A stretch of DNA of 43,925 nt from Actinomycetota bacterium (GTDB taxonomy: Bacteria > Actinomycetota > Acidimicrobiia > Spongiisociales > UBA4744), in the NCBI GenBank assembly GCA_013152275.1, contig JAADGS010000032.1, positions 1 to 43,925 of the forward strand, given 5' to 3'. Shown piece after piece: positions 5,470-30,707 of the stretch; the stretch's first letter is position 1, and each line of letters starts with the position of its first letter. Below the pieces are notes generated by a model. The model was not told where the DNA came from. It was given only the letters and a program-made list of their open reading frames with translations, and did not search any database. The translations under genes were made by a program, and so were the position numbers.

Positions 5470-6291
5470 ATGAAGGACTTCTCGGGCAAGGTGGTGGCTC
5501 TCACAGGTGCCGCGTCGGGGATCGGGCGGGCTCTGGCGGTCCGACTGGGAGAAGAGGGCGCAGATCTCGCGCTCGGCGACGTCGACGAGGCGGGGCTGAA
5601 TGAGACCGCCAAACTCGTCGATCGCAGTCCCAAAGTGACGACCCACGTCGTCGACGTCGGCGATCGGCATGCTGTCGAGGCATTCGCCCTCGCCGTCGAA
5701 CGTCGGCACGGTGGTGTCGACGTCATCGTCAACAATGCGGGTGTGGGCTGCGTGGCAACCGTCGAGGACGCGACCTACGAGGACTTCGACTGGGTCATCG
5801 GTGTCAACCTCTGGGGCGTGATCCATGGTGTCAAGGCGTTCCTTCCTCTCTTAAGGAAGAGGCCGGAAGCGCACATCGTCAACGTGGCGAGTGTCAACTC
5901 ATTCCTTCCCTTTCCGACCAGCGGTCCCTACAACATCTCGAAGTCCGGCGTGGAGGCCTTGTCGGAAACCCTGATGGAGGAGCTGTCGGATACGAACGTC
6001 TCCGTCAGCTGTGTGTACCCGGGGGGTGTCAAGACCAACATCTCGCGTAACGCCCGCCACACGAGTGACGAGGAGAACGTCGAGTTCGAACGCCGGGCGA
6101 TGGCCACTCCCGACCAGGCCGCTCGGCGCATCATTCGTGGTATCAAGAAGGACAGGAAACGAATCGTCGTCGGGGTCGACGCGAAACTCATGGTGATCGC
6201 CAGGCGCCTCAGCCCCCTGGGAACGCTCCGACTGGTGACGTGGGGGTGGCGCCGGACCCTGAAAGGGCGGTCAGGCCATCCGACACCATGA
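5470..6291 (+). CDS. SDR family NAD(P)-dependent oxidoreductase
   Basis: This 273-residue classical short-chain dehydrogenase has TGAASGIGRAL at residues ~11-21 for cofactor binding, NNAGVG around residue 90, VNVASVNSF with the catalytic serine region, and YNISK as the Tyr-x3-Lys catalytic pair. PGGVKT follows, as in the family. The C-terminal ~40 residues are basic (RRLSPLG, WGWRRTLKGR) and may associate with membrane, as in SDRs annotated near lipid genes. ATG 5470 was chosen over GTG 5449 because the SDR fold begins directly after it. Substrate unknown. Confidence 0.88.
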   Translation: MKDFSGKVVALTGAASGIGRALAVRLGEEGADLALGDVDEAGLNETAKLVDRSPKVTTHVVDVGDRHAVEAFALAVERRHGGVDVIVNNAGVGCVATVEDATYEDFDWVIGVNLWGVIHGVKAFLPLLRKRPEAHIVNVASVNSFLPFPTSGPYNISKSGVEALSETLMEELSDTNVSVSCVYPGGVKTNISRNARHTSDEENVEFERRAMATPDQAARRIIRGIKKDRKRIVVGVDAKLMVIARRLSPLGTLRLVTWGWRRTLKGRSGHPTP

Positions 6292-6349
6292 ACGCGACAC
6301 GGGGGAGCAGGACGGCCCTGGCGGTCTGGCGAACGGGGCTCGCTGTCCG

Positions 6350-6523
6350 CTCACCGGGCTCGCCGAGTCCCTTGGCGCCGAGAACGGGTCCGTCACAGAC
6401 ATCTACCTGCCGGAGCGGCCCGCGCGCAATCTACCTGCGATCCACGTTCCGCTCATCGCCCTCGTGGTGTTCCTCCACGGACGGAACATGTTGGGACGGC
6501 GAAGACGCGGTCACACAGGATGA
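6350..6523 (+). other. Possible gene remnant in a 426-bp gap (6292-6717)
   Basis: Between the SDR and the methyltransferase genes there is no complete gene. One frame reads like real protein for about 55 residues without a start codon: LTGLAESLGAENGSVTDIY, then RNLPAIHVPLIALVVFLHG, ending in an arginine-rich tail before TGA at 6521. The hydrophobic IHVPLIALVVFL stretch could be one membrane segment. I do not recognise the family. It may be the 3' end of a decayed gene. The rest of the gap shows nothing I can name. Confidence 0.3.
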
Positions 6524-6717
6524 CATGTAGGTCGGCCATCACGACTTGGCGCGAGACGTTCGAGATTCGACAATCTGCGCGGCCGCTCGTCGGCCGGCGC
6601 GGCCCGGACGGTGACCATGGCTGCGACGGTGTCGACTGATCCCGCATTGAGGTCAGAGGTCCAGGTTCCGTCGTCGGTTCGCCAGGTATGAAACCCGGCC
6701 GTGCTACCTTTTTTGGC

Positions 6718-19210: not shown

Positions 19211-20857
19211 TCATGCAGCACAACAAGACAGGTTTCTGACGTCCTTGTTGAAGGTCTGGGCGGCGAGTTTGAGCGCCTCGGCCATCGTCAGATACGGGTG
19301 GAACATTCCGGCGATCTCATCGACCGTTGCGTGGTAGTGCATCGCCACGACCGCCGCCTGAATGACGTCACCGGCTCCCTCCGCCAGCATATGTGCGCCG
19401 AGCAACTCTCCGGTCGACTCATCGGCGACGAGCTTGATCACTCCGGCGGTGTCGCGGTTCACCAGCGCCCGGGGCACGGAATCGAGGGGAAGGATCGACG
19501 TCACGACCGGGCGTCCGGTCTCCCGCGCCGCCTCTTCCGTGAGGCCGACCGAAGCAATCGGAGGGCTCGTGAATGTGACACGCGGCATCGTGCGGAGGTC
19601 GATCGCGCGTCCCGCAGCGCGCAGCGCGTTCTCTGCGGCGATATTGCCGGAGGCGGCGGCGACGTAGACGAACTGCGGGATGGTGGTGACGTCGCCGGCT
19701 GCCCACACCGCCGGGTTCGAGGTGGCGAAGCTCGCATCGACGACGATTGAGCCGTGCTTGTCGGTTCCAACATCTGCAAAGTCGAGCCCAAGGTTCGCCG
19801 TGTTGGCCCGACGGCCCGTGGCGATCAGAAGCCGGTCGGCTTCCAGACGCGCGCCGGTGCCGCCGGTCTCGATCTCGAGCCATGTCCGGTCTCCGTCTGT
19901 GCCGGCGCGCCGTGCCACGGCATTCTCGTAGACCTGTCCGCCATCACTGACGAGGTTCCCGCGCAGCAGGTCGGAGATCTCGGGTTCTTCGAACGGGGCG
20001 ATCCGGTCCAACGCTTCGACCCAAGTGACCTTCGACCCGAGATGGGCGAAGAGCTGTCCGAGCTCGAGACCGATGGCATTGGCGCCGACGACGATCAGTT
20101 CCTCTGGCAGTTCCGTCAGCTCGAGAGCGGTCGTCGACGTCAGATAGTCCGTATCGTCGAGACCCTCGATCGGTGGCACCCACGGGGAGGCTCCTGTCGC
20201 GATGAGGTAGCGACCGGCTGTAATCGGTCGTCCATCGACCTCGACGGCATTTGGGCCGGTGAAGCGGGCGGTTCCTCTGATCAGATCGATGTCATAGACG
20301 TCGAGAAGATCGACGTACTTCTCCTGCCGGAGGACTCCGACGAGTTCATCCTTGGCTGCGATGAGGACGCCAAGGTCGAGATCACCGGCGAACGTCGCGA
20401 CTCCGGCGAACGGCGAGTGGCCGGCCTGGTGGTAGAGCTCCGCAGGTCGTAGCAACGCCTTGGACGGCACGCAACCGACGTTCACGCAAGTGCCGCCGAT
20501 GGTGCCCTTCTCGGCGATGGCGACGGACGCTCCGAGATCCCTCGCCTTGATCGCTGCGGCGAACGCCGCCGAACCCGAGCCGATGATCAGCAGGTCGTAG
20601 TCGTCGTCGCCCGAGGCGGTGATGTCCGCCGGCTCGTTGTCGGATGTGGAGACGGAGACGATCTCGTAGGTGGTCCCCTCCAGCGCATCGGTCGCCTTCG
20701 TCACGTCGAACGAACCTGTGTCGATTCCGGTTGCGAGCCCACGGCGCCAGTCGACTTCGAGATCCGTCAGGCCTGCCGAGGCAAGCACGCTCCCAACGTG
20801 GTGTTCGCAGCTGTCGCAGGTCATCCCCTTGACGCCGAGGGTGATCTTGGTACTCAT
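19211..20857 (-). CDS. merA: Mercury(II) reductase with N-terminal HMA domain
   Basis: This 548-residue protein has every MerA hallmark. The N-terminal heavy-metal domain has GMTCDSC (Cys14, Cys17). The pyridine nucleotide-disulphide reductase core begins at LLIIGSGSAAFAA and has the redox pair GGTCVNVGCVPSK (Cys124, Cys129). The C-terminus ends in the Hg-shuttling vicinal pair LSCCAA (Cys545, Cys546). It reduces Hg2+ to volatile Hg0 in the cytoplasm with NADPH. GGAGAAG precedes the ATG. It is the last gene of a sigma-arsR-merA unit; a possible promoter in the 55-bp gap before it could allow separate induction. No merB (organomercurial lyase) is present in the window. Confidence 0.95.
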   Translation of the reverse strand: MSTKITLGVKGMTCDSCEHHVGSVLASAGLTDLEVDWRRGLATGIDTGSFDVTKATDALEGTTYEIVSVSTSDNEPADITASGDDDYDLLIIGSGSAAFAAAIKARDLGASVAIAEKGTIGGTCVNVGCVPSKALLRPAELYHQAGHSPFAGVATFAGDLDLGVLIAAKDELVGVLRQEKYVDLLDVYDIDLIRGTARFTGPNAVEVDGRPITAGRYLIATGASPWVPPIEGLDDTDYLTSTTALELTELPEELIVVGANAIGLELGQLFAHLGSKVTWVEALDRIAPFEEPEISDLLRGNLVSDGGQVYENAVARRAGTDGDRTWLEIETGGTGARLEADRLLIATGRRANTANLGLDFADVGTDKHGSIVVDASFATSNPAVWAAGDVTTIPQFVYVAAASGNIAAENALRAAGRAIDLRTMPRVTFTSPPIASVGLTEEAARETGRPVVTSILPLDSVPRALVNRDTAGVIKLVADESTGELLGAHMLAEGAGDVIQAAVVAMHYHATVDEIAGMFHPYLTMAEALKLAAQTFNKDVRNLSCCAA

Positions 20858-20866
20858 TGTCTTCTC

Positions 20867-20912
20867 CGCTCGTGGTCGTAAGACAGAGTACTCAGATATT
20901 GTGTTAATGCAA
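20867..20912 (-). promoter_or_regulatory. Possible merA promoter with ArsR site
   Basis: The arsR-merA gap is AT-rich against its surroundings. On minus it reads TTGCAT, 16 bases, TACTCT as a weak promoter. The spacer carries ATATTGT (plus 20896-20902) followed by AATG. The same ATATTGT...AATG arrangement occurs in the divergent promoter at 22011-22029, so it may be the ArsR operator. Confidence 0.4.
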
Positions 20913-21287
20913 TCAGTCCTGGTTCATAGGTTGTTCGGTCATCACGATGCGGCACGACCCGATATCGCCAGTGGTCGTGTCGAGGAATCCTTTGCCGAGA
21001 TCGAGCAGAGCGACAACTCGCGCGTTCGTAACCCGGTACTCCACGATACGGCCGCGCCGTACGCTTTCGAGGTATCCGCACCACTCGAGGCACGCGAGAT
21101 GTTGTGAGACGCGTCCCTGGGAGAGGCCGACTTCTTCGACGATCTCCTTTTGGCTTCGAGGGCCTTTCAGGAGAAGCTGAAGAATGCGGATCCGGGTTGC
21201 GTCACCGAGCCCTCGGAAGATGCGGGCGATGAGTTCCTCGTCGGGGAGCGGAACCGGGGTTGCTTCGATGATGGCTGGTCGTCCCAT
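20913..21287 (-). CDS. ArsR/SmtB family metal-sensing repressor (CmtR-like)
   Basis: This 124-residue winged-helix repressor shows FRGLGDATRIRILQLLL, LSQGRVSQHLACLEWCGYL and an RIVEYRV wing. Three cysteines stand out: Cys66 and Cys70 in the HLACLEWCG recognition helix, and Cys112 in the C-terminal tail. The same geometry (Cys57, Cys61, Cys102) binds Cd/Pb in mycobacterial CmtR, and similar ArsR proteins control mer operons in actinobacteria. It should release DNA on binding a thiophilic metal, here most likely Hg(II) given merA downstream. It lies 66 bases after the sigma-factor gene and 55 bases before merA. Confidence 0.9.
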   Translation of the reverse strand: MGRPAIIEATPVPLPDEELIARIFRGLGDATRIRILQLLLKGPRSQKEIVEEVGLSQGRVSQHLACLEWCGYLESVRRGRIVEYRVTNARVVALLDLGKGFLDTTTGDIGSCRIVMTEQPMNQD

Positions 21288-21353
21288 GAAGTCTCCGATC
21301 GTTGTTGCCGGGGAGATATCGACGATAGCGCATACGTTGTTGGGGCGATGGGC

Positions 21354-21971
21354 TCACACGACCGTGCTGCCGGTGACGGCGTAGGTGCCCGGTCCGCAAC
21401 GTGGGCATGCGATCTGTTGGGCGAGGGCCGACTGCAACTGTCGGCGAGCACGGCGAAGCCTGGCTTTTACAGCGTCTTCGGAGATTCCGAGACGTGTCGC
21501 GGTTTCGGCGGTCGAGAAGCCCCAGCCGAGGCGAAGAACGACGACGCCGGCCTGTCCCTTGGGTAGTTCATGAATGGCCAAGGCGGTCCGGCATCCCAGT
21601 ATCGAGATATCGAAGGCATCGGCAGGCCGGCTTGCACCGGGAATGTCTTCGGGGATGGCATCGGACGAACAGGTGGGAGGTTTCCTTCTGCGTCTGACAT
21701 CGAGGCAGGTATTGCGTGCCACCGCGAAGATCCATGTGCCGATCGTCGAGTCACCTCGGAACCGAGGGATGCCTCTGAGGATGCGCTCGTTGATCTCCTG
21801 GATGGCGTCCTCGCTTTCTCCGGGTGACACCATTCGGTGTGCACACCTCCAGAGTCGCTCTTGGTAGCGGCTCAACAGTTCACCGAGCCAGTCGCGGTCG
21901 TCATAGAGCGCCGCGGCCGTGAACTGTTCGTCCGTCAGTGTCGTCCAATTCGGCCTGGGAGTCGTGGCCAT
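21354..21971 (-). CDS. ECF-type RNA polymerase sigma factor
   Basis: This 205-residue sigma-70-family protein contains region 2 (LLSRYQERLWRCAHRMV, ESEDAIQEINERI, TWIFAVARNTCLDVRRRR) and region 4 (LPKGQAGVVVLRLGWGFS, GISEDAVKARLRRARRQL). The tail after region 4 has an unusual CPRCG motif (residues ~188-192) that could hold a metal. No anti-sigma gene is adjacent. It is the first gene of the leftward unit with arsR and merA, so the metal response may include a dedicated sigma factor, or the cysteines may themselves sense thiols or metal. That last point is inference. Confidence 0.85.
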   Translation of the reverse strand: MATTPRPNWTTLTDEQFTAAALYDDRDWLGELLSRYQERLWRCAHRMVSPGESEDAIQEINERILRGIPRFRGDSTIGTWIFAVARNTCLDVRRRRKPPTCSSDAIPEDIPGASRPADAFDISILGCRTALAIHELPKGQAGVVVLRLGWGFSTAETATRLGISEDAVKARLRRARRQLQSALAQQIACPRCGPGTYAVTGSTVV

Positions 21972-22063
21972 GGTGATCGTTGGCTCCGGTAGGTTGCTGA
22001 CGCGTCGATAATATTGTAGTGAGCGAATGTTATATTGCCGGAGCCCGATGAGATACGGAGGTC
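21972..22063. promoter_or_regulatory. Divergent promoter region of the two metal-response units
   Basis: A 92-bp spacer separates the sigma gene (minus) from the MerF-like gene (plus). It holds a conspicuous AT island at 22007-22037 including ATAATATTGT and TTATATTG. ATATTGT followed by AATG recurs in the arsR-merA gap. ArsR-type operators are typically AT-rich imperfect dyads, so this is a candidate shared operator. GGAGG lies before ATG 22064. Confidence 0.5.
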
Positions 22064-22342
22064 ATGCCCGTGACGAACAGGTCTTCGTCCCGGCCGCGTT
22101 CGAGACAGGACGCGGCGGCGAGAGCCGGTGGTGTCGGTGGGGCGATCGCCTTGGCGTTGTGCTGTGGGGGCGCTCTGCTGGCCGCGGCATTGGGGCTCGG
22201 AGCGGTCGCTGCGTTTCTCATCGCTCCGTGGTTCATCATTCCTGTGGTCCTCTTGGCCGCAGGGATCGCCTACCGACGTTCGGTGAGACGCAAGCCGACG
22301 TGTGAAGTTCGACCGACTGCTCAGGAAAGGAAGCGGCGATGA
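22064..22342 (+). CDS. MerF/MerT-like two-helix membrane protein
   Basis: This 92-residue protein has a basic N-terminus and two membrane segments (about residues 25-48 and 49-70). The first contains a vicinal cysteine pair (Cys33-Cys34, ALCCGG); a third cysteine (Cys80) lies in the basic cytoplasmic tail. A Cys-Cys pair in the first helix with further cysteine in the tail is the signature of MerF/MerT mercury importers, which hand Hg(II) from the outside to MerA. The sequence is too diverged for a firm name, but its place beside merA supports that role. Its stop overlaps the next start in ATGA. Confidence 0.65.
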   Translation: MPVTNRSSSRPRSRQDAAARAGGVGGAIALALCCGGALLAAALGLGAVAAFLIAPWFIIPVVLLAAGIAYRRSVRRKPTCEVRPTAQERKRR

Positions 22343-22965
22343 GTGAAAAGCAGAAGGCCCGGCGGCAACGCCGTCGCGCCGAACGAGCCGCCGGCGGTGG
22401 CGGAGCGAGCCGGAGATGGTGGATAGTCGGCGGCATCGGCGTCGTCGTGCTCGTAGCGGTCTCTGTGGCGTTCGCGTTGTCCCGGAGTCCGCAGGCGTCG
22501 ACAGGGCCGAGTCCGCAGGCGTCGACAGGGCCGAGTGCGGCGGCGTCGACAGGGGCGAGTGCGGCGGCCGACGTGGTGCTGCAGGATTTCGAGGGCAACC
22601 CCGTGACCATATCGAGTCTGGAGGGCCGGCCTCTTGTCATCAATTTCTGGGCCTCGTGGTGCCCGGCATGCTTCTCTGAGATGCCGAGTCTCGAGAAGGT
22701 CTACCAGGCCCATCGCGATTCGGTCCAGTTCCTCGGCATCAATCTCGGTAATGACATCGAAGCGGCCATGAGCGTCGTCGAGCAGACCGGTGTCACCTAT
22801 CCACTGGCGAGGGATCCGCAAGGCGAGACGTATGCCGAGTTCGGAGGCTATGGGATGCCGACAACGGTTTTCCTGGATGGGGATGGGCGCGTGATCGAGC
22901 TCTACACCGGTGAGCTCACGGTCGATGAGCTCGAAACCCGGATCGTCAAGTACTTCGAGAGCTGA
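22339..22965 (+). CDS. Membrane-anchored TlpA-family thioredoxin-like protein
   Basis: This 208-residue protein has a basic N-terminus, one membrane helix (residues ~27-47), a repetitive Ser/Thr/Pro/Ala linker and a TlpA/ResA-type thioredoxin domain. The active site is FWASWCPAC (Cys108, Cys111), and the cis-proline is in GMPTTVF (Pro174). It should face the cell exterior and exchange dithiol/disulphide with substrates, being kept reduced by CcdA. It overlaps the MerF-like gene by four bases and ccdA by one, so the proteins are made together. Possible roles are keeping exterior thiols of the mercury transport path reduced, or repairing Hg-damaged proteins. Confidence 0.88.
   Translation: MSEKQKARRQRRRAERAAGGGGASRRWWIVGGIGVVVLVAVSVAFALSRSPQASTGPSPQASTGPSAAASTGASAAADVVLQDFEGNPVTISSLEGRPLVINFWASWCPACFSEMPSLEKVYQAHRDSVQFLGINLGNDIEAAMSVVEQTGVTYPLARDPQGETYAEFGGYGMPTTVFLDGDGRVIELYTGELTVDELETRIVKYFES
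22486..22569 (+). repeat. 24-bp tandem repeat in the TlpA linker
   Basis: Three full and one half copies of a 24-bp unit (starts 22486, 22510, 22534, 22558) encode SPQASTGP, SPQASTGP, SAAASTGA, SAAA. The first two are identical and the third has diverged. It extends the linker between the membrane helix and the thioredoxin domain, in frame. Confidence 0.85.
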
Positions 22966-23831
22966 TGATCCTCACTGCAGCACTTCTGTTCGCGTTTGTC
23001 GCCGGCATGGTCGCCACCGTCAACCCGTGCGGATTCGCGATGCTGCCCGCGTACGTGTCCATGTTCCTCGGTGGCAACGAAGGCGACGAAGCCCCTCCCG
23101 GCGTTGTGACGGGACTTCGAGTCGGCTTCTCTGTCACAGTCGGTTTCTTGGTGTTGTTCAGTGCCGTCGGTCTCCTGGTATCGGCGGGTCTCCAATGGAT
23201 GCTCAGTTTTGTGCCGTGGGTTGCGTTGGTCATCGGCGCATCGCTCCTTGGGATCGGCATCGCGGTGATACGCGGGTATCACCTCACCGCACGAGTCATC
23301 GGCATGAAGAAAAGGCAAGGCCGATCGTTTCTGGCCATGGCAGGATTCGGTGTTGCGTTTGGAACGGCGTCGATCTCGTGCACGCTTCCGATCTTCCTTG
23401 CAGTCGTCGGCCTTTCGGCAAGAACTCCGAGTCTTGTGTATGGCTGGTCGGTCTTCGTTGCCTACGCCGTGGGTATGGGTGTCGTGCTGGCCGCCATCGC
23501 CGTGGCGCTCGCGACATCCCGCCAGGTTCTCGTGACACGTATGCAGAGGATTCTTCCGTACGTTGAACGAATCGGAGGATGGTTACTCGTCGCATCGGGT
23601 CTCTTCATCATGTACTACTGGGCGATATCGCTGTTCGTCAAGCCCGGTCAGGACTCGATCCTCTACCGGCCGATCTTCTACGTGGGAGGAGTCTCGGCGT
23701 GGTTCACGAACAGCATCGGGAATACGCCGATACGCTGGGCCGGCGGCTTCGTCGCCGTGATCGTCGCGATCGGCGTTGCCGAGGCCATCCGCGTTCGGCG
23801 GCGCCGTCGAGCCAAGGAGATCGCATCGTGA
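22965..23831 (+). CDS. ccdA: CcdA/DsbD-type transmembrane thiol electron carrier
   Basis: This 288-residue membrane protein has at least six helices and the two CcdA cysteines: Cys22 in ATVNPCGFAMLPAY and Cys139 in ASISCTLPIF. CcdA passes electrons from cytoplasmic thioredoxin across the membrane to exterior thioredoxin-like proteins, here presumably the TlpA protein encoded just before it. The C-terminal part adds helices and a basic tail (RVRRRRRAKE). The start overlaps the tlpA stop (TGATG), and the stop overlaps the next start (GTGA). Pairing of tlpA and ccdA is usual in cytochrome c maturation, but no cytochrome genes lie here. Confidence 0.9.
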   Translation: MILTAALLFAFVAGMVATVNPCGFAMLPAYVSMFLGGNEGDEAPPGVVTGLRVGFSVTVGFLVLFSAVGLLVSAGLQWMLSFVPWVALVIGASLLGIGIAVIRGYHLTARVIGMKKRQGRSFLAMAGFGVAFGTASISCTLPIFLAVVGLSARTPSLVYGWSVFVAYAVGMGVVLAAIAVALATSRQVLVTRMQRILPYVERIGGWLLVASGLFIMYYWAISLFVKPGQDSILYRPIFYVGGVSAWFTNSIGNTPIRWAGGFVAVIVAIGVAEAIRVRRRRRAKEIAS

Positions 23832-25198
23832 CCGAATCCACAGACGTCGACACGATCGTCATCGGCGGTGGAATGGCCGGTCTCCCGTTCGCGCTGCGTG
23901 CCGCTCGGCGGGGTTCGACGGTGCTCATCGAAGGTGATCTCCTCGGAGGTACCTGTCTGAACCGGGGATGCATCCCGACCAAGACGATGATCCACTCTGC
24001 CAAGGTCGCGCATCTGGCGCGGCGCGCCGACGAATTCGGGATCGACGTGGGACCGGTTTCTGTCGACCTGGGCCGGATCGTCGACCGCAAAGATGCGATC
24101 GTCGAAGCCGTCAGGAATGGGTCGTATCGGGCGGCGGAGCGAGCGACGAATCTCACGCTTGTCGAGAACTGGGCCCGGTTCGTGGGACCGCACGCCGTCG
24201 AGGCCGGAGGGGCCGTGTACCGGGCCGCCCGGATCGTGATCAACACGGGCGCTCGTCCAACCGTGCCCGATCTGCCGGGGATCGGCGAGGTGCCGACTCT
24301 CGACTCGACGGCCGCGTTGGATCTTCGTGAGGCGCCGGAGCATCTGATCGTGATGGGCGGCGGCTATGTGGGCTGTGAGTTCGCCCAGATGTACCGCAGA
24401 TTCGGATCTCGGGTAACGGTGGTCCATCGCCGATCGCGTCTGCTTCCAGCCGAGGATCCCGAGGCCTCCGAAGTCGTCGAGCGTGTGTTCCTGCGTGAGG
24501 GCATCGAGTTGTTGCTCGGCGAGGAACCCACCGCGGTACGCGCGGCAAACGGCTGCATCGAGCTGTCCGTCGGTGGACGTGATGTCGGGGCGTCGCATCT
24601 CCTCGTGGCGGTCGGGAGAACACCCAACACGTCACGGCTCGGCCTCGAGATACCGGGTGTGGCGGTCGATGATGGGGGATTCATCGTCGCCTCCGAACGG
24701 TTCGAAACGTCGGCTGCCGGTGTCTACGCGATCGGCGATGTGATCGGACCACCACTGTTCACGCACTCGGCGAGAGACGACGCAGCGCTTCTCGCGCGAC
24801 ATCTGTTCAACGGAGAGGACATCACGACGTCGACACGACTGGTCCCACATGCCGTGTTCACCGACCCCGAGGTCGCCACATTCGGGATGACGCACGCCGA
24901 AGCGGAGACACGGTACGGCGAAGCGGCAGTGGGGGTCGAGAACTTCCGCGGCGTGGCCAGAGCGAAGGCGATCGGTGAGACGGACGGGTTCGTCAAGATC
25001 GTCACCAGGCCCGATCGAGTGATCGTCGGAGCCACGATCGTCGGACCCGATGCCGGGAACCTCATCCACGAACTCGTCGTCGCCGCGTACGCGGGGCTCA
25101 CCGTCGACCAGGTGCGCAACGCGATCCACATCCATCCCACGCTGGCAGAAGCGGTGAACGCCGCCGCCGGAGGGGTCCACCGACCAACAACGGCGTGA
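23828..25198 (+). CDS. MerA-like FAD-dependent pyridine nucleotide-disulphide oxidoreductase
   Basis: This 456-residue flavoprotein has an N-terminal FAD site (IVIGGGMAGLPFALRAA), a redox-active pair GGTCLNRGCIPTK (Cys43, Cys48), an NAD(P) site MGGGYVGCEFAQMY, and a C-terminal dimerisation domain with HIHPTLAEAV. Unlike the MerA encoded at 19211-20857, it has no HMA domain and no C-terminal Cys-Cys (it ends HRPTTA), so it may not reduce Hg(II) efficiently. The HIHPTL motif is as in dihydrolipoamide dehydrogenase-type proteins. GTG 23828 overlaps the ccdA stop. It could reduce a thiol carrier supplying CcdA, which is inference from the operon. Confidence 0.85.
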   Translation: MTESTDVDTIVIGGGMAGLPFALRAARRGSTVLIEGDLLGGTCLNRGCIPTKTMIHSAKVAHLARRADEFGIDVGPVSVDLGRIVDRKDAIVEAVRNGSYRAAERATNLTLVENWARFVGPHAVEAGGAVYRAARIVINTGARPTVPDLPGIGEVPTLDSTAALDLREAPEHLIVMGGGYVGCEFAQMYRRFGSRVTVVHRRSRLLPAEDPEASEVVERVFLREGIELLLGEEPTAVRAANGCIELSVGGRDVGASHLLVAVGRTPNTSRLGLEIPGVAVDDGGFIVASERFETSAAGVYAIGDVIGPPLFTHSARDDAALLARHLFNGEDITTSTRLVPHAVFTDPEVATFGMTHAEAETRYGEAAVGVENFRGVARAKAIGETDGFVKIVTRPDRVIVGATIVGPDAGNLIHELVVAAYAGLTVDQVRNAIHIHPTLAEAVNAAAGGVHRPTTA

Positions 25199-25516: not shown

Positions 25517-25984
25517 ATGAGTTGGTTGAAGAAGAACACCAAGACCGAGCGGAAAGCATCGGCTCCTGCCCCCGCATCCCAGGGTGGACAAGCCGGCATG
25601 GACCAGATGGTTCGGATGCTGGCTGCCGCGCCGGAGGATCGGCGGACAATGATGCTCGGAGATCGCCTCGCCGTGTTCGCCGGTCAAGACGAAGCGTCTC
25701 GCGAGCGCGCCATGAAGGGGATGCTCGCCGCAGCGTTGCAGCTTCCCGAAGACGGCTACCGGAAGATCGCCGCGTCACGCTTCAAGGCGTTGAACGGGCT
25801 CGATGCCGATACCCGGATGACGCTGATGAAGTCGCACGCCGCCGTGGTCAAGTCGTTGCCGGCCGACCAGCAGCAGAGGGAGATGAAAACGATGAAGCAG
25901 ATCGTCTCCGCCCTGCCGGAAGCCGAACGTGGCCGGATGATGGCCATGATGCAGAACCTCGGGCTGATGGGAGAGGCGGGATGA
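25517..25984 (+). CDS. Methionine-rich helical-repeat protein of unknown function
   Basis: This 155-residue protein has no signal peptide or membrane segment. After a Lys/Ala/Pro-rich N-terminus, residues ~30-152 consist of about six ~19-residue repeats with a loose pattern L-P/D-x-(D/E)-x-R-x2-M-M. Examples are APEDRRTMM, LPEDGYRKI, LDADTRMTLM, LPADQQQREM and LPEAERGRMMAMM. Seventeen of 155 residues are Met (about 11%). The repeat resembles the superhelical N-domain of MgtE magnesium channels in style, but I do not claim homology. Such Met density could bind soft metals. The stop overlaps the next start (ATGA), and the same kind of repeat recurs at the end of the third gene of the unit. Confidence 0.75.
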   Translation: MSWLKKNTKTERKASAPAPASQGGQAGMDQMVRMLAAAPEDRRTMMLGDRLAVFAGQDEASRERAMKGMLAAALQLPEDGYRKIAASRFKALNGLDADTRMTLMKSHAAVVKSLPADQQQREMKTMKQIVSALPEAERGRMMAMMQNLGLMGEAG

Positions 25985-26172
25985 GCACGCCGGCGAAGTT
26001 CATCGCCGCCTATCTCGGAGTCCTCGTCTTGATGCTGACCTGGTGGTCGACGCTCAGGGCGTCGGGGTCGGTCGGGCAGATTTGGCTCGTCGTGGCAGCG
26101 TACGGTGCGCTGCTCGCCGTGTGGGGTGTCCTGGTGCGGTGGGGACGATCACAGGAAGAGGGGACGAAGTGA
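25981..26172 (+). CDS. Small two-helix membrane protein
   Basis: This 63-residue protein has two hydrophobic segments (FIAAYLGVLVLMLTWWST and IWLVVAAYGALLAVWGVLV) and a charged tail (RWGRSQEEGTK). It starts at ATG 25981 within an ATGA overlap and ends in a GTGA overlap with the next gene, so it is certainly translated as part of the three-gene unit. I recognise no family. It may be a subunit or partner of the large membrane protein that follows. Confidence 0.75.
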   Translation: MSTPAKFIAAYLGVLVLMLTWWSTLRASGSVGQIWLVVAAYGALLAVWGVLVRWGRSQEEGTK

Positions 26173-27386
26173 CCGTCGACTGGCCGGCGATCGTCGGTGT
26201 GAGCCTCATCAGTGCCGTCTTGACACTCATGCTCTTCCCGTTCGCCGAACGGAAGGACTACCTGAAGAGCCGGCCACCATCGTTCATCGCCGGGGTGCTG
26301 TTCATGCCGTTGTTCGTCGCGATTGCCGTCATGCTGCAAACGGGCTGGGCCGATGCCGCCAAGGCAACGGTACTGGTCGTTCTCTTCCTCGGGTTCTGGG
26401 CATCGGCCGCGTGGCTGGTGCGCACCCCGATCGAGGGTGCCTATGTTCGTGGCCTCGAGTTCGGGCCGGGTCTGAACTTCCGGCCAGATCTCATCCTGCC
26501 CGGCGGAGTGATGTTGGTGAAGGGCATCATCCTCACCGGGGTGGGGACGTTGATCGCCGTTCAGGGCGTCTTCGGGCTGCCGAAATGGAGCTGGTCGGGG
26601 TTCATCCTTGCGTTCATCGGCATCATCACGATCATCCCCATCCGGGGAATGGCCAAGATGATCGCTCGAAGAGAGCGGTTCCTCGGCAACGACCCGCGCT
26701 GGCAGGTACCGGTGCGCTGGGCGCTGCTGGTCGGTGGCCTTGCGGTCCTGCTCTACGGTTTTCTGAGCGCGTTCATGGGAGGGACGCCCTTCGTCGATCT
26801 CCTCCCGAAGGCCGAGCTTTCCTGGCTCTCGGTCATCCTCCTCGTTGCCTCGTCCGCGTCGCTGTGGATCCGGGAAGTACGGAAGGCGAATCTCCTCGAG
26901 GGAACCGAGACCATGGCACAGCGGTTCGCATCGAACCTGTGGCTGTACCTGTCCGTCCTCGCCTACATGTATGGATTCATCGTGCTCTTCATGGGCACGT
27001 ATATGTACCCACACCCGGGAACGAATCCGTGGGGTGTGGTGCTCGGAGCCGGGTTGTTCATTGCGGGGCTGTCGCTGATGATCGGGTTCCGGCCGTTCGC
27101 GACCAGGAATGAGCTGAGCGGGACGATCGGCATCATGGTCGGGATGCTCGCGGCCCTCGAGAAGGAGGAGCGATGGAAGATGATGATGAGTCGCATCCGC
27201 ACCATCGCCGCATATCCGACCATCCAGTGCACCTGGCATGTCGGCACCATGGCCTCGGCTCTCGATGGGTTGTCGACGGTCGATCGGGAGCGTGTCGAGA
27301 CGACTCGCAACGAGGTGATGATGTCGCTGTCGAGTCAGGAACGGCAGGCGATGATGATCGCCATGGATCGACTTCGGGTCGCCTGA
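26169..27386 (+). CDS. Polytopic membrane protein with Met-rich helical-repeat C-terminus
   Basis: This 405-residue protein starts at GTG 26169, overlapping the previous stop. About nine membrane helices fill residues 5-315, with several Met and Trp residues and a FMGTYMYPHPGTNPW loop. The cytoplasmic-type C-terminus (residues ~318-405) carries Met-rich repeats like those of the 155-residue protein two genes upstream: LEKEERWKMMM, LSTVDRERVE, LSSQERQAMMIAM. Between them is a Cys/His/Met cluster, IQCTWHVGTM. I recognise no transporter family. The shared repeat suggests the soluble protein and this tail interact or bind the same ligand. Location inside the metal block hints at metal handling; this is inference. 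Confidence 0.75.
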   Translation: MTVDWPAIVGVSLISAVLTLMLFPFAERKDYLKSRPPSFIAGVLFMPLFVAIAVMLQTGWADAAKATVLVVLFLGFWASAAWLVRTPIEGAYVRGLEFGPGLNFRPDLILPGGVMLVKGIILTGVGTLIAVQGVFGLPKWSWSGFILAFIGIITIIPIRGMAKMIARRERFLGNDPRWQVPVRWALLVGGLAVLLYGFLSAFMGGTPFVDLLPKAELSWLSVILLVASSASLWIREVRKANLLEGTETMAQRFASNLWLYLSVLAYMYGFIVLFMGTYMYPHPGTNPWGVVLGAGLFIAGLSLMIGFRPFATRNELSGTIGIMVGMLAALEKEERWKMMMSRIRTIAAYPTIQCTWHVGTMASALDGLSTVDRERVETTRNEVMMSLSSQERQAMMIAMDRLRVA

Positions 27387-27474
27387 GGCGCGTGTTGCCC
27401 GACGTGTGACACGGGCGCTCTTGCACGTGGACGAGTGCGCCACGCCGTACCGATTCATCGTTCCGAGAATGTAC

Positions 27475-27505
27475 TTGACCTTCAAGTTGCTCGAAGGTGT
27501 ACGGT
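27475..27505 (+). promoter_or_regulatory. MerR-type promoter/operator
   Basis: A -35 TTGACC (27475-27480) and a -10 TACGGT (27500-27505) are separated by 19 bases, the over-long spacing typical of MerR-activated promoters. The spacer holds a perfect dyad ACCTTC-N9-GAAGGT (27478-27498). Transcription would start near 27512 and run through the merR gene, and perhaps into the ATPase gene. Confidence 0.85.
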
Positions 27506-27570
27506 CGGTGTCGTCGGCGTGCACCGACGGGAGATTCGGCCGGAGAGTCGGGATAGCAGGTGGTGGTGAG

Positions 27571-27981
27571 ATGAGAATCGGCGAGGTTGGGAAGGCGGTG
27601 GGGGTGGGTCCGCCGACGATCCGTTATTACGAGTCGGTCGGGGTGCTGCCGGAGCCGGAGCGGACCCCGTCGGGCTATCGCTCGTACTCGGTGGACGATG
27701 TGGAGCGACTGCGGTTTGTGACGTTGGCGAGGTCGTTGGGCATCGGGTTGGACGATATCCGCGAGATTCTGGGTCTGCGAGACCGGGGTGAGGCTCCGTG
27801 CCGGTATGTCCGTGCCGTGTTGGATCGTCAGGTGGATGCCGTTGCGGAACGAATCGGCCGGCTCGAGACCTTGTCTGAGGAGCTTCGCCGGTTGCAGCGA
27901 CTGGCTCGCACACTTCCCGATATCGACTCGGATGATCCCTGCGTGTGTCACATCCTCCAGCCTGCCGGGGCACGGCACTGA
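27571..27981 (+). CDS. MerR-family heavy-metal-responsive regulator
   Basis: This 136-residue regulator has the MerR DNA-binding domain: MRIGEVGKAVGVGPPTIRYYE, TPSGYRSY, VERLRFVTLARSLGIGLDDI. A long dimerisation helix follows. Metal-site candidates are Cys77 (APCRYVRA) at the start of that helix and a C-terminal Cys124-Val-Cys126-His127 (PCVCHIL). A Cys at the position of Cys77, rather than the Ser of CueR, is characteristic of MerR proteins sensing divalent ions (Zn, Cd, Pb, Hg) rather than Cu(I)/Ag(I). I start at ATG 27571; upstream in-frame codons lie before the predicted transcript start. It should activate the 27475-27505 promoter. Confidence 0.9.
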   Translation: MRIGEVGKAVGVGPPTIRYYESVGVLPEPERTPSGYRSYSVDDVERLRFVTLARSLGIGLDDIREILGLRDRGEAPCRYVRAVLDRQVDAVAERIGRLETLSEELRRLQRLARTLPDIDSDDPCVCHILQPAGARH

Positions 27982-28256
27982 CCGTGCGTGGAACGACGGC
28001 AACGACAGTCCCCGACGACTTGGACGTGAGGGGCAGATGGCGGCAGCGGCATCGATGACGTTCACGGTGCAGGGGACTGCACGGGATCCGCAGACAGCCT
28101 CGGATCTGCGCCGAGCCATCTGGACGGTGTGATCCGGGCCCGAGCCGGCTACGACGGTGCCGGGTGGAGGTGCGTTTCTACCCGGACCGGGTGTCAAAGG
28201 ACGTCGTTCGAGGACGGATCCGAGCCTCGGGTTTCGAACCCGATTGAACAAACGAG

Positions 28257-30707
28257 ATGACAGAGATGGCCGACGGATCCACAGACCGAAACACCGACAT
28301 CGAGGGCGCACAGGCTGTGTTCCGGATGAAGATCGGTGGCATGTCGTGCTCGTTCTGTGCGTCGACGATCAACAAGGCCTACGGGCGGATCGACGGTGTG
28401 TATGAGGTGGGCGTGTCGTTGGCCCATGAGGAGGGGCTGGTCAGGTACGACCCTTCCAAGGTGACGCCGGAGAAGTTGCGCCGCACGCTGGAGGAACTGG
28501 GCTACACGTATCGGGATCCGGAGAAGGTGCGAAGCTTCGACGAGGACGCCGACGAGCTTCGCCGTGAGCGGGGCCGGTTGATCGCCGCGGGGAGTTTCGC
28601 CGTGGCGAGTCTGCTGCTGATGTTGTTCGGCCGGTGGCTCGATCTCGTCGAGATCCCGCTGATGCCCTGGCTGTTGTTGGCGTTGGCGCTGAACACGATG
28701 TTCGTCACGGGCTGGTTCATCAAGAAGATGGCATGGGCGTCGCTGCGCCGTGGCATTCTGAACCAGCACGTGCTGTTGGAGTTCGCCGCGTTCGCCGGGA
28801 TCGCCGGCGGCTTGATGGGTCTGTTCGTGTTGAACGATTTCCCGGTCGGTGACTTCTTCGCCGCCGCCACTCTGGTCACCACCTATCACATTCTGTCGCA
28901 CTACTCGTCGCTGGTCGTGCGCACGCGCGCATCGCAGGCGGTTCGCCGTCTCATGGCGCTACGTCCCGATACCGCCCGGGTGATCCGTAACGGTGAAGAG
29001 AGCGAGACACCGATCGACGGCGTGGTCTCAGGCGACCGTGTCCGCATTCGACCAGGTGAGTCGATCCCGGTCGACGGAATCGTCGTGGACGGGCTCTCGG
29101 CGGTGGACGAGGCGCTCGTGACCGGCGAGTCGATTCCTGCAGAGAAGGGTCCCGGCGACGACGTGATCGGCGGATCCATCAACCAGACCGGCACCCTCGT
29201 CGTGCAAGTGACTCGGGTCGGCGAGGACGCGTTCCTCTCTCGGGTGGGGCGTTTCATCGACGAGGCCCGAAGCCTCCGCCCCGGCGTGCTGCAGATCGTC
29301 GACGTCGTACTCCGTTACTTCGCACCCACCGTGCTCATCCTTGCCGCCGCCGGATTCGCGATCTGGACCGTTGCACCGGCTCTTCTCGGAGACGGACCGA
29401 ACTGGAATCGTGCATTCCTTGCCGGGCTCGCCACTTTGGTGATGGGGTACCCTTGCGCGTTGGGGATGGCCACACCGTTGGCCACTATTCGCGGCGGTGG
29501 CGAAGCAGCCCAGCGGGGGATCCTGATGCGATCGGGTGAAGCATTCCAGGTGATGGGTGACATCGCCGTCATCGTGTTCGACAAGACCGGCACGATCACT
29601 CGAAGCGAACCCACCGTGAATACCATCGTGCCGGCCGATGGCGTCAACGAAGAGGACGTGCTGCGGATGGGCGCCTCCATCGAGATGAACAGCGAACACC
29701 CTCTCGCCCGCGCCGTCGAAGGCGCCGCCGAGAATCAGGACCTCTCCCTGGTCGAAACCGATGCCTTCGAGTCCCACACCGGATACGGCGTGGAAGCCAT
29801 CGTCGAAGGCGCACGCGTTCTCGTAGGGAAACCGACCTGGCTCATCACAGAAGGTATCGATCTCACACCGCTCGACACCGACCGGCGGCGCCTCGAAGAA
29901 GCAGGCCAGACCGTCATCGCCGTTGCTCGCAGCGGACGGCTTCTCGGACTCGTCGGCATCGCCGACAACAGCAAAGACGACGCCGCCCAAACCATCCAAC
30001 GAATCAAGGACGCCGGCATCACCCCGGTCATGATCACCGGTGACAACCATCGCACCGCGCGAGCCGTCTCCACCCAGGTCGGAATCGACGAAGTACTTGC
30101 CGAGGTCCTCCCCGACGAGAAAGCCGCCGAGATCCGCCGGCTCCAGGACGACGGGACACGAGTGATGATGGTCGGTGACGGCATCAATGACGCTCCCGCC
30201 CTCACCCAGGCGGACATCGGCGTCGCCATCGGTGCCGGAACCGACATCGCCATCGAGTCCGCGGACATCGTCATCATGAGTGACCGGCTCGGTTCCGTGA
30301 TGGACGCCCACGAGATCGGCGTGTCCTCCTACCGCAAGACCAAACAGAACCTGGCGCTCGCGTTCGGCTTCAACGGAATCGGAATCGCCGCTGCGGTCAC
30401 CGGCCTCGTCAGTCCCGTCTGGGCAATGATCGCCATGATCTCATCGGTCACCGCGGTGCTCGCCAACTCGTTCGGAGGCCGGTTTCTCCGTGGCGAGGCA
30501 CGCAACAGCCGATACGAATCCTTCAGCCGAGACAGTCACCATCAGAGTCCCGATCGGCACGACGCGACCAAAGGCGGCGCACCTCACATGTTCGACCATG
30601 AGGGTCTGCTCGAACTTCGCCTGGACGGGCAAACGGTACGCTTCTGGGCCACGCTCGCCGTAGCGATCACGGCCATCACGCTTCTCGTCGGCGTCTGGTC
30701 GACTTGA
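28257..30707 (+). CDS. P1B-type heavy-metal-translocating ATPase with YPC motif
   Basis: This 816-residue pump has an N-terminal HMA domain (GGMSCSFC, Cys31 and Cys34), the TGES actuator motif, phosphorylation motif DKTGT (Asp442), the nucleotide-binding SEHPLA, and GDGINDAP. In the ion-path helix the usual CPC is Tyr398-Pro399-Cys400 (MGYPCALGMATP), losing the first cysteine. The last helices keep Asn and Met/Ser residues (FGFNGIG, WAMIAMISS) as in Cu pumps. A ~80-residue extension after FGGRFLRG ends with an extra membrane helix. The nearby MerR has divalent-type cysteines, so the ion may not be Cu(I). ATG 28266 is an alternative start; neither has a strong ribosome site. Confidence 0.9.
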   Translation: MTEMADGSTDRNTDIEGAQAVFRMKIGGMSCSFCASTINKAYGRIDGVYEVGVSLAHEEGLVRYDPSKVTPEKLRRTLEELGYTYRDPEKVRSFDEDADELRRERGRLIAAGSFAVASLLLMLFGRWLDLVEIPLMPWLLLALALNTMFVTGWFIKKMAWASLRRGILNQHVLLEFAAFAGIAGGLMGLFVLNDFPVGDFFAAATLVTTYHILSHYSSLVVRTRASQAVRRLMALRPDTARVIRNGEESETPIDGVVSGDRVRIRPGESIPVDGIVVDGLSAVDEALVTGESIPAEKGPGDDVIGGSINQTGTLVVQVTRVGEDAFLSRVGRFIDEARSLRPGVLQIVDVVLRYFAPTVLILAAAGFAIWTVAPALLGDGPNWNRAFLAGLATLVMGYPCALGMATPLATIRGGGEAAQRGILMRSGEAFQVMGDIAVIVFDKTGTITRSEPTVNTIVPADGVNEEDVLRMGASIEMNSEHPLARAVEGAAENQDLSLVETDAFESHTGYGVEAIVEGARVLVGKPTWLITEGIDLTPLDTDRRRLEEAGQTVIAVARSGRLLGLVGIADNSKDDAAQTIQRIKDAGITPVMITGDNHRTARAVSTQVGIDEVLAEVLPDEKAAEIRRLQDDGTRVMMVGDGINDAPALTQADIGVAIGAGTDIAIESADIVIMSDRLGSVMDAHEIGVSSYRKTKQNLALAFGFNGIGIAAAVTGLVSPVWAMIAMISSVTAVLANSFGGRFLRGEARNSRYESFSRDSHHQSPDRHDATKGGAPHMFDHEGLLELRLDGQTVRFWATLAVAITAITLLVGVWST

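Follow-up and report, generated by a model that had tools for sequence, protein, structure and literature searches.

The mer locus and its genes

We examined a divergent mercury-resistance (mer) locus from an actinobacterial genome, in which the gene for a predicted mercuric reductase, MerA, is accompanied by genes for a thioredoxin-like protein, TlpA, and a putative membrane thiol electron carrier, CcdA. The locus lies on contig 32 of assembly GCA_013152275.1 (3.07 Mb in 100 contigs), the named relatives of which are Acidimicrobiia/Actinomycetota metagenome assemblies; the window referred to below is the whole stretch of 43,925 nt that was analysed. The leftward unit encodes an extracytoplasmic function (ECF) sigma factor, an ArsR regulator and MerA, and the rightward unit a small Cys-Cys membrane protein, TlpA, CcdA and a flavoprotein. 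Successive genes of the rightward unit overlap by four bases (ATGA, 22339-22342), one base (TGATG, 22965) and four bases (GTGA, 23828-23831). The divergent promoter region spans 92 bp, and gaps of 66 bp and 55 bp separate the sigma factor gene from arsR and arsR from merA, respectively. The gene list, order, coordinates and short overlaps given in an earlier note on this DNA all hold on rechecking of the sequence. Judged by its genes, this is a genuine mercury-resistance locus in an uncultured actinobacterium.

The product of merA (19211-20857, minus strand) scores 559 bits against TIGR02053, for which the cut-off is 454, and is complete, with an N-terminal heavy-metal-associated domain (GMTCDSC), a CVNVGC active site and a C-terminal Cys pair (SCCAA). 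Its best solved relative, the mercuric reductase 5x1y, aligns over residues 4-547 with the GMTC..C, CVNVGC and SCCA motifs all in register. The statement in the earlier note that MerP is missing stands to the extent that no stand-alone MerP is found among the surrounding genes scanned; it has to be qualified in that MerA itself carries a fused MerP-like heavy-metal domain.

The adjacent gene, arsR (20913-21287, minus strand), encodes an ArsR/SmtB regulator (NF033788, 70 bits; cut-off 55). Its best solved match is CmtR (2jsc), with both Cys aligned, and its Cys triad, CLEWC...SC, follows the pattern CL-x-x-C ... SC that is common to CmtR and all of the relatives; the threshold for CmtR itself was not reached (NF047906, 59.5 bits against a cut-off of 150). 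The resemblance to this Cd/Pb sensor, and the genes for a MerR regulator and P-type ATPase located 2 kb downstream, would fit a regulon that responds chiefly to a different soft metal (Cd, Pb or Cu), with merA as one component. We regard this as very unlikely. Regulators of this type were found in 12 genomes among the relatives sampled and adjoin a merA over the MerA cut-off in all 12; moreover, ArsR-type mer repressors are known from Streptomyces lividans (PMC3466566).

The remaining leftward gene (21354-21971, minus strand) encodes an ECF-type RNA polymerase sigma factor, identified by Sigma70_r2/r4_2 and TIGR02937. A sigma factor inside a mer regulon is unusual. It is present in five of the seven loci of the CcdA clade to which the window belongs (see below), and in these five its gene separates arsR from the divergent promoter, with no visible anti-sigma gene. 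It probably acts as an amplifier.

The rightward unit opens with the gene for a 92-residue protein (22064-22342, plus strand) that has a CC pair in its first membrane helix and a further Cys in its tail; C33-C34 is invariant in 12 mer-linked relatives. Although conserved across mer loci, it falls below the MerT, MerF and MerE cut-offs. The MerT model NF010314 gives 19.2 bits (E=1e-3) against a cut-off of 150, and the best MerF match (E=5e-4) is found in other members. Assignment to MerF was pursued with Pfam, NCBIfam and PDB profile searches, which returned sub-threshold matches mixed with matches of composition, and was not retained. MerF-like, the term used in the earlier note, is a fair label but a weak one, given that the MerT match is below threshold. 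The protein may tentatively be viewed as a MerT/MerF/MerE-like mercury transporter.

The second gene, tlpA (22339-22965, plus strand), encodes a membrane-anchored extracytoplasmic thioredoxin-like protein that has the WCPAC sequence (CPAC motif) and cis-Pro of the thioredoxin-fold TlpA/ResA proteins. It matches Redoxin with E=3e-24, and the ResA subfamily model gives 90 bits, below its cut-off; the best solved match to a TlpA profile is ResA (4nmu), and the CXXC is invariant in 12 relatives. A second TlpA gene lies between ccdA and the flavoprotein gene in a related locus (L081, 8710-9324) and in the same place on a Deinococcus plasmid (L241).

The product of ccdA (22965-23831, plus strand) belongs to a divergent CcdA subfamily and matches Pfam DsbD_TM weakly (E=8e-4, below the gathering score). 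A 28-sequence profile has as its top solved match the nuclear magnetic resonance structure of TtCcdA, 5vkv (E=7e-4), which is also the top Foldseek match of the predicted model (probability 0.97); a second aligner ranks 5vkv fifth (Z 7.9), tied with NqrE/RnfE-type chains, its matches being only middling. Cys22 and Cys139 are invariant and are located one in each of two helices of the inverted repeat, as expected of CcdA. We infer that the product carries electrons to an outer thioredoxin. In the mer locus of Streptomyces longwoodensis (L242), a VKOR-family gene (6045-6680) lies directly 3' of ccdA.

The last gene (23828-25198, plus strand; GTG start at 23828) encodes a 456-residue flavoprotein, a pyridine-nucleotide disulfide reductase of the MerA/LPD superfamily with a CLNRGC active-site dithiol, an HIHPT dyad and no C-terminal CC. 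It scores 421 bits against NF004992, below the cut-off, and passes no curated substrate-specific disulfide-reductase model; the mycothione reductase model TIGR03452 gives 264 bits against a cut-off of 636. It is 65-94% identical to its counterparts in four mer-linked relatives of the window group, 52% identical to 'mercuric reductase' open reading frames (ORFs) of Rhodococcus plasmids, one of them directly 3' of ccdA, 49% identical to a 'mercuric reductase' ORF in the S. longwoodensis mer locus, about 51% identical to an ORF adjoining merA in a haloarchaeal plasmid and 45% identical to an ORF in a Deinococcus cluster with merB. Orthology to the flavoproteins of staphylococci and of one other family was rejected at 27-34% identity. 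The name MerK has been given to glutathione-reductase-like genes of mer operons (PMC11227200). The window protein resembles MerK in being a further disulfide reductase encoded in a mer operon, albeit below every curated disulfide-reductase cut-off, and by analogy we propose that it has a MerK-like role. In the haloarchaeal plasmid (L248, 3910-6862), the flavoprotein gene is directly 3' of merA and an ArsR-family gene lies on the other side of merA. In a further locus (L060; G011:C16:200235-201584), the flavoprotein frame directly 3' of merA has one in-frame TGA.

A shared operator-like palindrome

A palindromic motif was learned as a position weight matrix from the regions upstream of arsR in eight relatives, the window being excluded; its score was 167.5, compared with at most 109 in shuffled sequence. 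The three best matches in the window fall in the three gaps of the mer locus. The first, AATATTGTAGTGAGCGAATGTT (22010-22031, 17.7 bits), is in the divergent promoter region; the second, GATATTGTGTTAATGCAATCAG (20895-20916, 16.0 bits), is in the arsR-merA gap and overlaps the last four bases of arsR; and the third, a weaker palindrome (21315-21336, 10.1 bits), is between the sigma factor gene and arsR. When the gaps are given a four-base margin, none of 1000 column-permuted symmetric matrices places all of its top three matches there, and 22 of 1000 place two. Without the margin, two of the three matches lie inside the gaps, a result equalled by 11 of 1000 permuted matrices.

The best or near-best matches occupy the same places in four loci that were not used for training (L061, L081, L082 and L084), and in a distant Pseudonocardia plasmid (L035) the top match is in the arsR/tlpA divergent gap. 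Loci of another actinobacterial family, with the order Flav-MerA-ArsR-TlpA-CcdA, have tandem matches just upstream of merA in five of six cases, four of the five also having a match before the flavoprotein gene. No clear score was obtained in the Streptomyces locus L242 or in L210 and L212, and a scan for consensus sigma-70 promoters found none. We conclude that the predicted ArsR is probably a mer repressor and that it probably controls both divergent units through an operator in the promoter region between them.

Recurrence beside merA

All CcdA relatives with at least 46% identity to the window protein adjoin merA, in seven genomes, with arsR in every locus and the sigma factor gene in the five already mentioned; one further relative, at 52% identity, is in a locus cut off by a contig end (L008). 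In the CcdA tree, the window falls in a seven-member clade made up entirely of mer loci, with a branch support (SH-aLRT) of 99. The mer label requires 7 changes on this tree as against 21.8 in shuffles, and the association of CcdA with mer has therefore been gained or lost several times, these counts being descriptive since the tree set includes loci picked for nearness to merA. In an even sample of the phylum, comprising 346 genomes and 33 merA loci, linkage was scored by crossing coordinates. A CcdA gene lies within 6 kb of merA at 10 of the 33 loci, where about 0.2 would be expected assuming one to two CcdA genes per 3-Mb genome. The ten linked loci span five families, with six of them in one family. 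A search for tlpA-ccdA near merA in other actinobacteria had been suggested in the earlier note, and its outcome is positive.

Because the operator is shared and the linkage to merA recurs in several families and phyla, the TlpA-CcdA unit very probably forms part of the Hg regulon. Expression of TlpA-CcdA and of the second flavoenzyme is probably induced along with that of mercuric reductase, as a single Hg-controlled regulon, and the coupling of the two units that had been claimed earlier is, on the strength of these comparisons, very probable.

In cytochrome c maturation by CcmG and CcdA, as in the window, a TlpA-type thioredoxin is fed by CcdA. The family names, and a Frondihabitans CcdA that adjoins a cytochrome oxidase assembly gene, would be in keeping with ordinary cytochrome c maturation genes that have come to lie near merA by chance. 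However, the window differs in having no ccm genes, a separate CcdA clade and a placement in the mer regulon under a shared ArsR operator. The genes scanned around the locus include none for cytochrome c assembly, as the earlier note had remarked, and cytochrome c genes are far from being constant companions of such operons, the finding that the note had said would count against it: relatives of CcmF or CcmH occur in 0 of 23 mer-linked loci. Furthermore, CcmF and CcmH are encoded on another contig of the same genome, in a separate cluster with a canonical CcdA and a TlpA-type thioredoxin, and in the tree this CcdA is placed apart from the mer-linked portion. On the basis of the separate cluster and the count of 0 in 23 we ruled out this explanation, which is highly improbable; the comparisons support the conclusion that the TlpA-CcdA unit is not a cytochrome c maturation unit.

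The arrangement is not new; it is widespread and has long been annotated in Gram-positive mer loci. On pRWAY01 of Rhodococcus sp. WAY2 (L247), merB-merR-merA is divergent from arsR-small protein-tlpA-ccdA-flavoprotein, with the rightward order as in the window. Close versions occur in S. longwoodensis, R. pyridinivorans, Pseudonocardia and other Actinobacteria, and also in Staphylococcus and Deinococcus; in the Pseudonocardia plasmid, TlpA-CcdA is divergent from ArsR-small-merA. The window has the divergent actinobacterial layout, with a gene set that is also found in L247 and L242 and an operator-like sequence in the divergent gap, and is best read as a variant of it. Rhodococcus-type loci have merB and carry arsR as the first gene of the small-tlpA-ccdA unit; the window has arsR on the merA side, no merB, an added ECF sigma factor, a MerA with a fused heavy-metal domain and a CcdA of a distinct clade. 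Divergent merAB and merRTP are described for S. lividans (PMC5312570), which could be compared by description only. Staphylococcal mer operons combine merR with TlpA and CcdA, joined by merA and a flavoprotein in Staphylococcus equorum plas2 and by MerT in S. epidermidis SAP105A. What sets them apart from the window is a regulator of the MerR family, an arrangement in a single direction, a distant CcdA and a flavoprotein with only 27% identity; their TlpA and CcdA genes are presumably the ORF3 and ORF4 of the pI258 type.

A putative outward thiol relay and its surroundings

We interpret the locus as a chromosomal Hg(II)-detoxification regulon with an outward TlpA-CcdA relay that would keep the uptake thiols reduced, and we put the probability of this at roughly 60%. 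For the relay itself, keeping the exterior thiols of Hg uptake reduced is the most likely role. In the proposed scheme, Hg(II) would release ArsR from operators in the shared promoter, before arsR and before merA, freeing both units, and the ECF sigma factor would amplify the response. The small Cys-Cys protein would hand Hg(II) over to MerA at its heavy-metal domain, and MerA would reduce it to Hg(0). Electrons drawn by CcdA from a thiol donor in the cytoplasm would pass outward to TlpA. Through its CXXC, TlpA would hold the exterior Cys pairs along the uptake path, in TlpA as well as in the small protein, in a reduced, disulfide-free state; the flavoprotein would regenerate the cytoplasmic thiol pool. 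TlpA may also bind incoming Hg(II) in the manner of MerP, and might possibly stand in for it. Stand-alone MerP went undetected in actinobacterial loci with TlpA and equally in those without (presence or absence in 40 loci), so that this comparison has no power to reveal such a replacement. The window MerA has a heavy-metal domain of its own, and the S. epidermidis plasmid combines TlpA-CcdA with a MerT.

The best analogue of the proposed outward relay is the TlpA of Bradyrhizobium, which reduces ScoI and COX II (PMC6696091), before metallation to judge by the title of ref. 84 in that paper. ScsC is likewise part of an outward thiol relay for a metal-handling protein (PMC8900818). The TlpA-ScoI and ScsBCD systems resemble what we propose for the window, but they handle copper, involve periplasmic chaperones and are Gram-negative.

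Several observations weigh against this interpretation. CcdA relatives of 36-45% identity form TlpA-CcdA pairs mostly without merA, and the majority of TlpA-CcdA relatives are not mer-linked. Conversely, 23 of the 33 merA loci are without TlpA-CcdA, and the relay is therefore not essential to MerA function. Several of the matches in the small-protein scan are driven by composition. As regards the electron donor of CcdA, no gene over the cut-off was found for MshA (mycothiol synthesis) or mycothione reductase, and the VKOR-family gene next to the S. longwoodensis CcdA would fit oxidation rather than reduction.

The many relatives outside mer loci would also be consistent with a TlpA-CcdA unit that, instead of working for Hg uptake, repairs general oxidative or thiol damage to cell-surface proteins under Hg stress. 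Transcript levels of oxidative-stress genes, a tlpA among them, rose with Hg in Thermus, an organism for which reduced thiol pools are important (PMC6445937). The tight operon fusion to the small Cys-Cys protein through a four-base overlap, in an order that is conserved, argues against such a general function, which we consider unlikely.

Thioredoxin-like and CcdA-like genes in many Gram-positive mer operons bear names such as 'mercury transporter' and 'ORF3', and TrxA and CcdA proteins of Actinomycetes are listed under GenBank names as mercury transporters (PMC12195606, Table 4). Taken literally, these names would mean that TlpA-CcdA itself carries Hg(II), which would bind to the TlpA CXXC outside and pass by way of the membrane Cys of CcdA, a repurposed importer, to MerA inside. 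In several mer loci (L035, L037, L040, L212 and L242), CcdA does have a cytosolic Cys-Cys tail like those of small mercury transporters. The window CcdA, however, has no such tail, and non-mer relatives of CcdA retain the same two Cys. Moreover, nearly all such loci also encode a distinct small transporter with a Cys-Cys or CPC motif, and MerT coexists with TlpA-CcdA on the S. epidermidis plasmid. We judge it unlikely that the pair carries Hg(II). It is likewise unlikely that CcdA in such mer operons has been turned from an electron carrier into an Hg(II) conductor, working thiol-to-thiol with TlpA across the membrane to MerA; if true, this would be a metal-import route built from a disulfide relay. 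The Cys-Cys tail was also considered as a mark of Hg-handling CcdA and rejected, with 4/24 mer-linked against 2/79 and none in the window protein.

No test of a role for TlpA-CcdA in mer operons was found in the literature surveyed. For the outward relay that we favour, the operator common to both units, the repeated linkage to merA and the lack of cytochrome genes lead to a sharp question, namely whether Hg resistance needs outward electron flow to keep the uptake thiols reduced.

Beyond the flavoprotein gene are three consecutive ORFs (25517-27386; 155, 63 and 405 residues) without any Pfam or NCBIfam match. The first and third keep their order in the sister genome (L061) and near another mer locus (L210). 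The three ORFs are followed at 27406-30707 by genes for a regulator of the MerR family and for a P-type ATPase that has a heavy-metal domain, both of which are conserved in L061 and form what appears to be a second metal-resistance unit.

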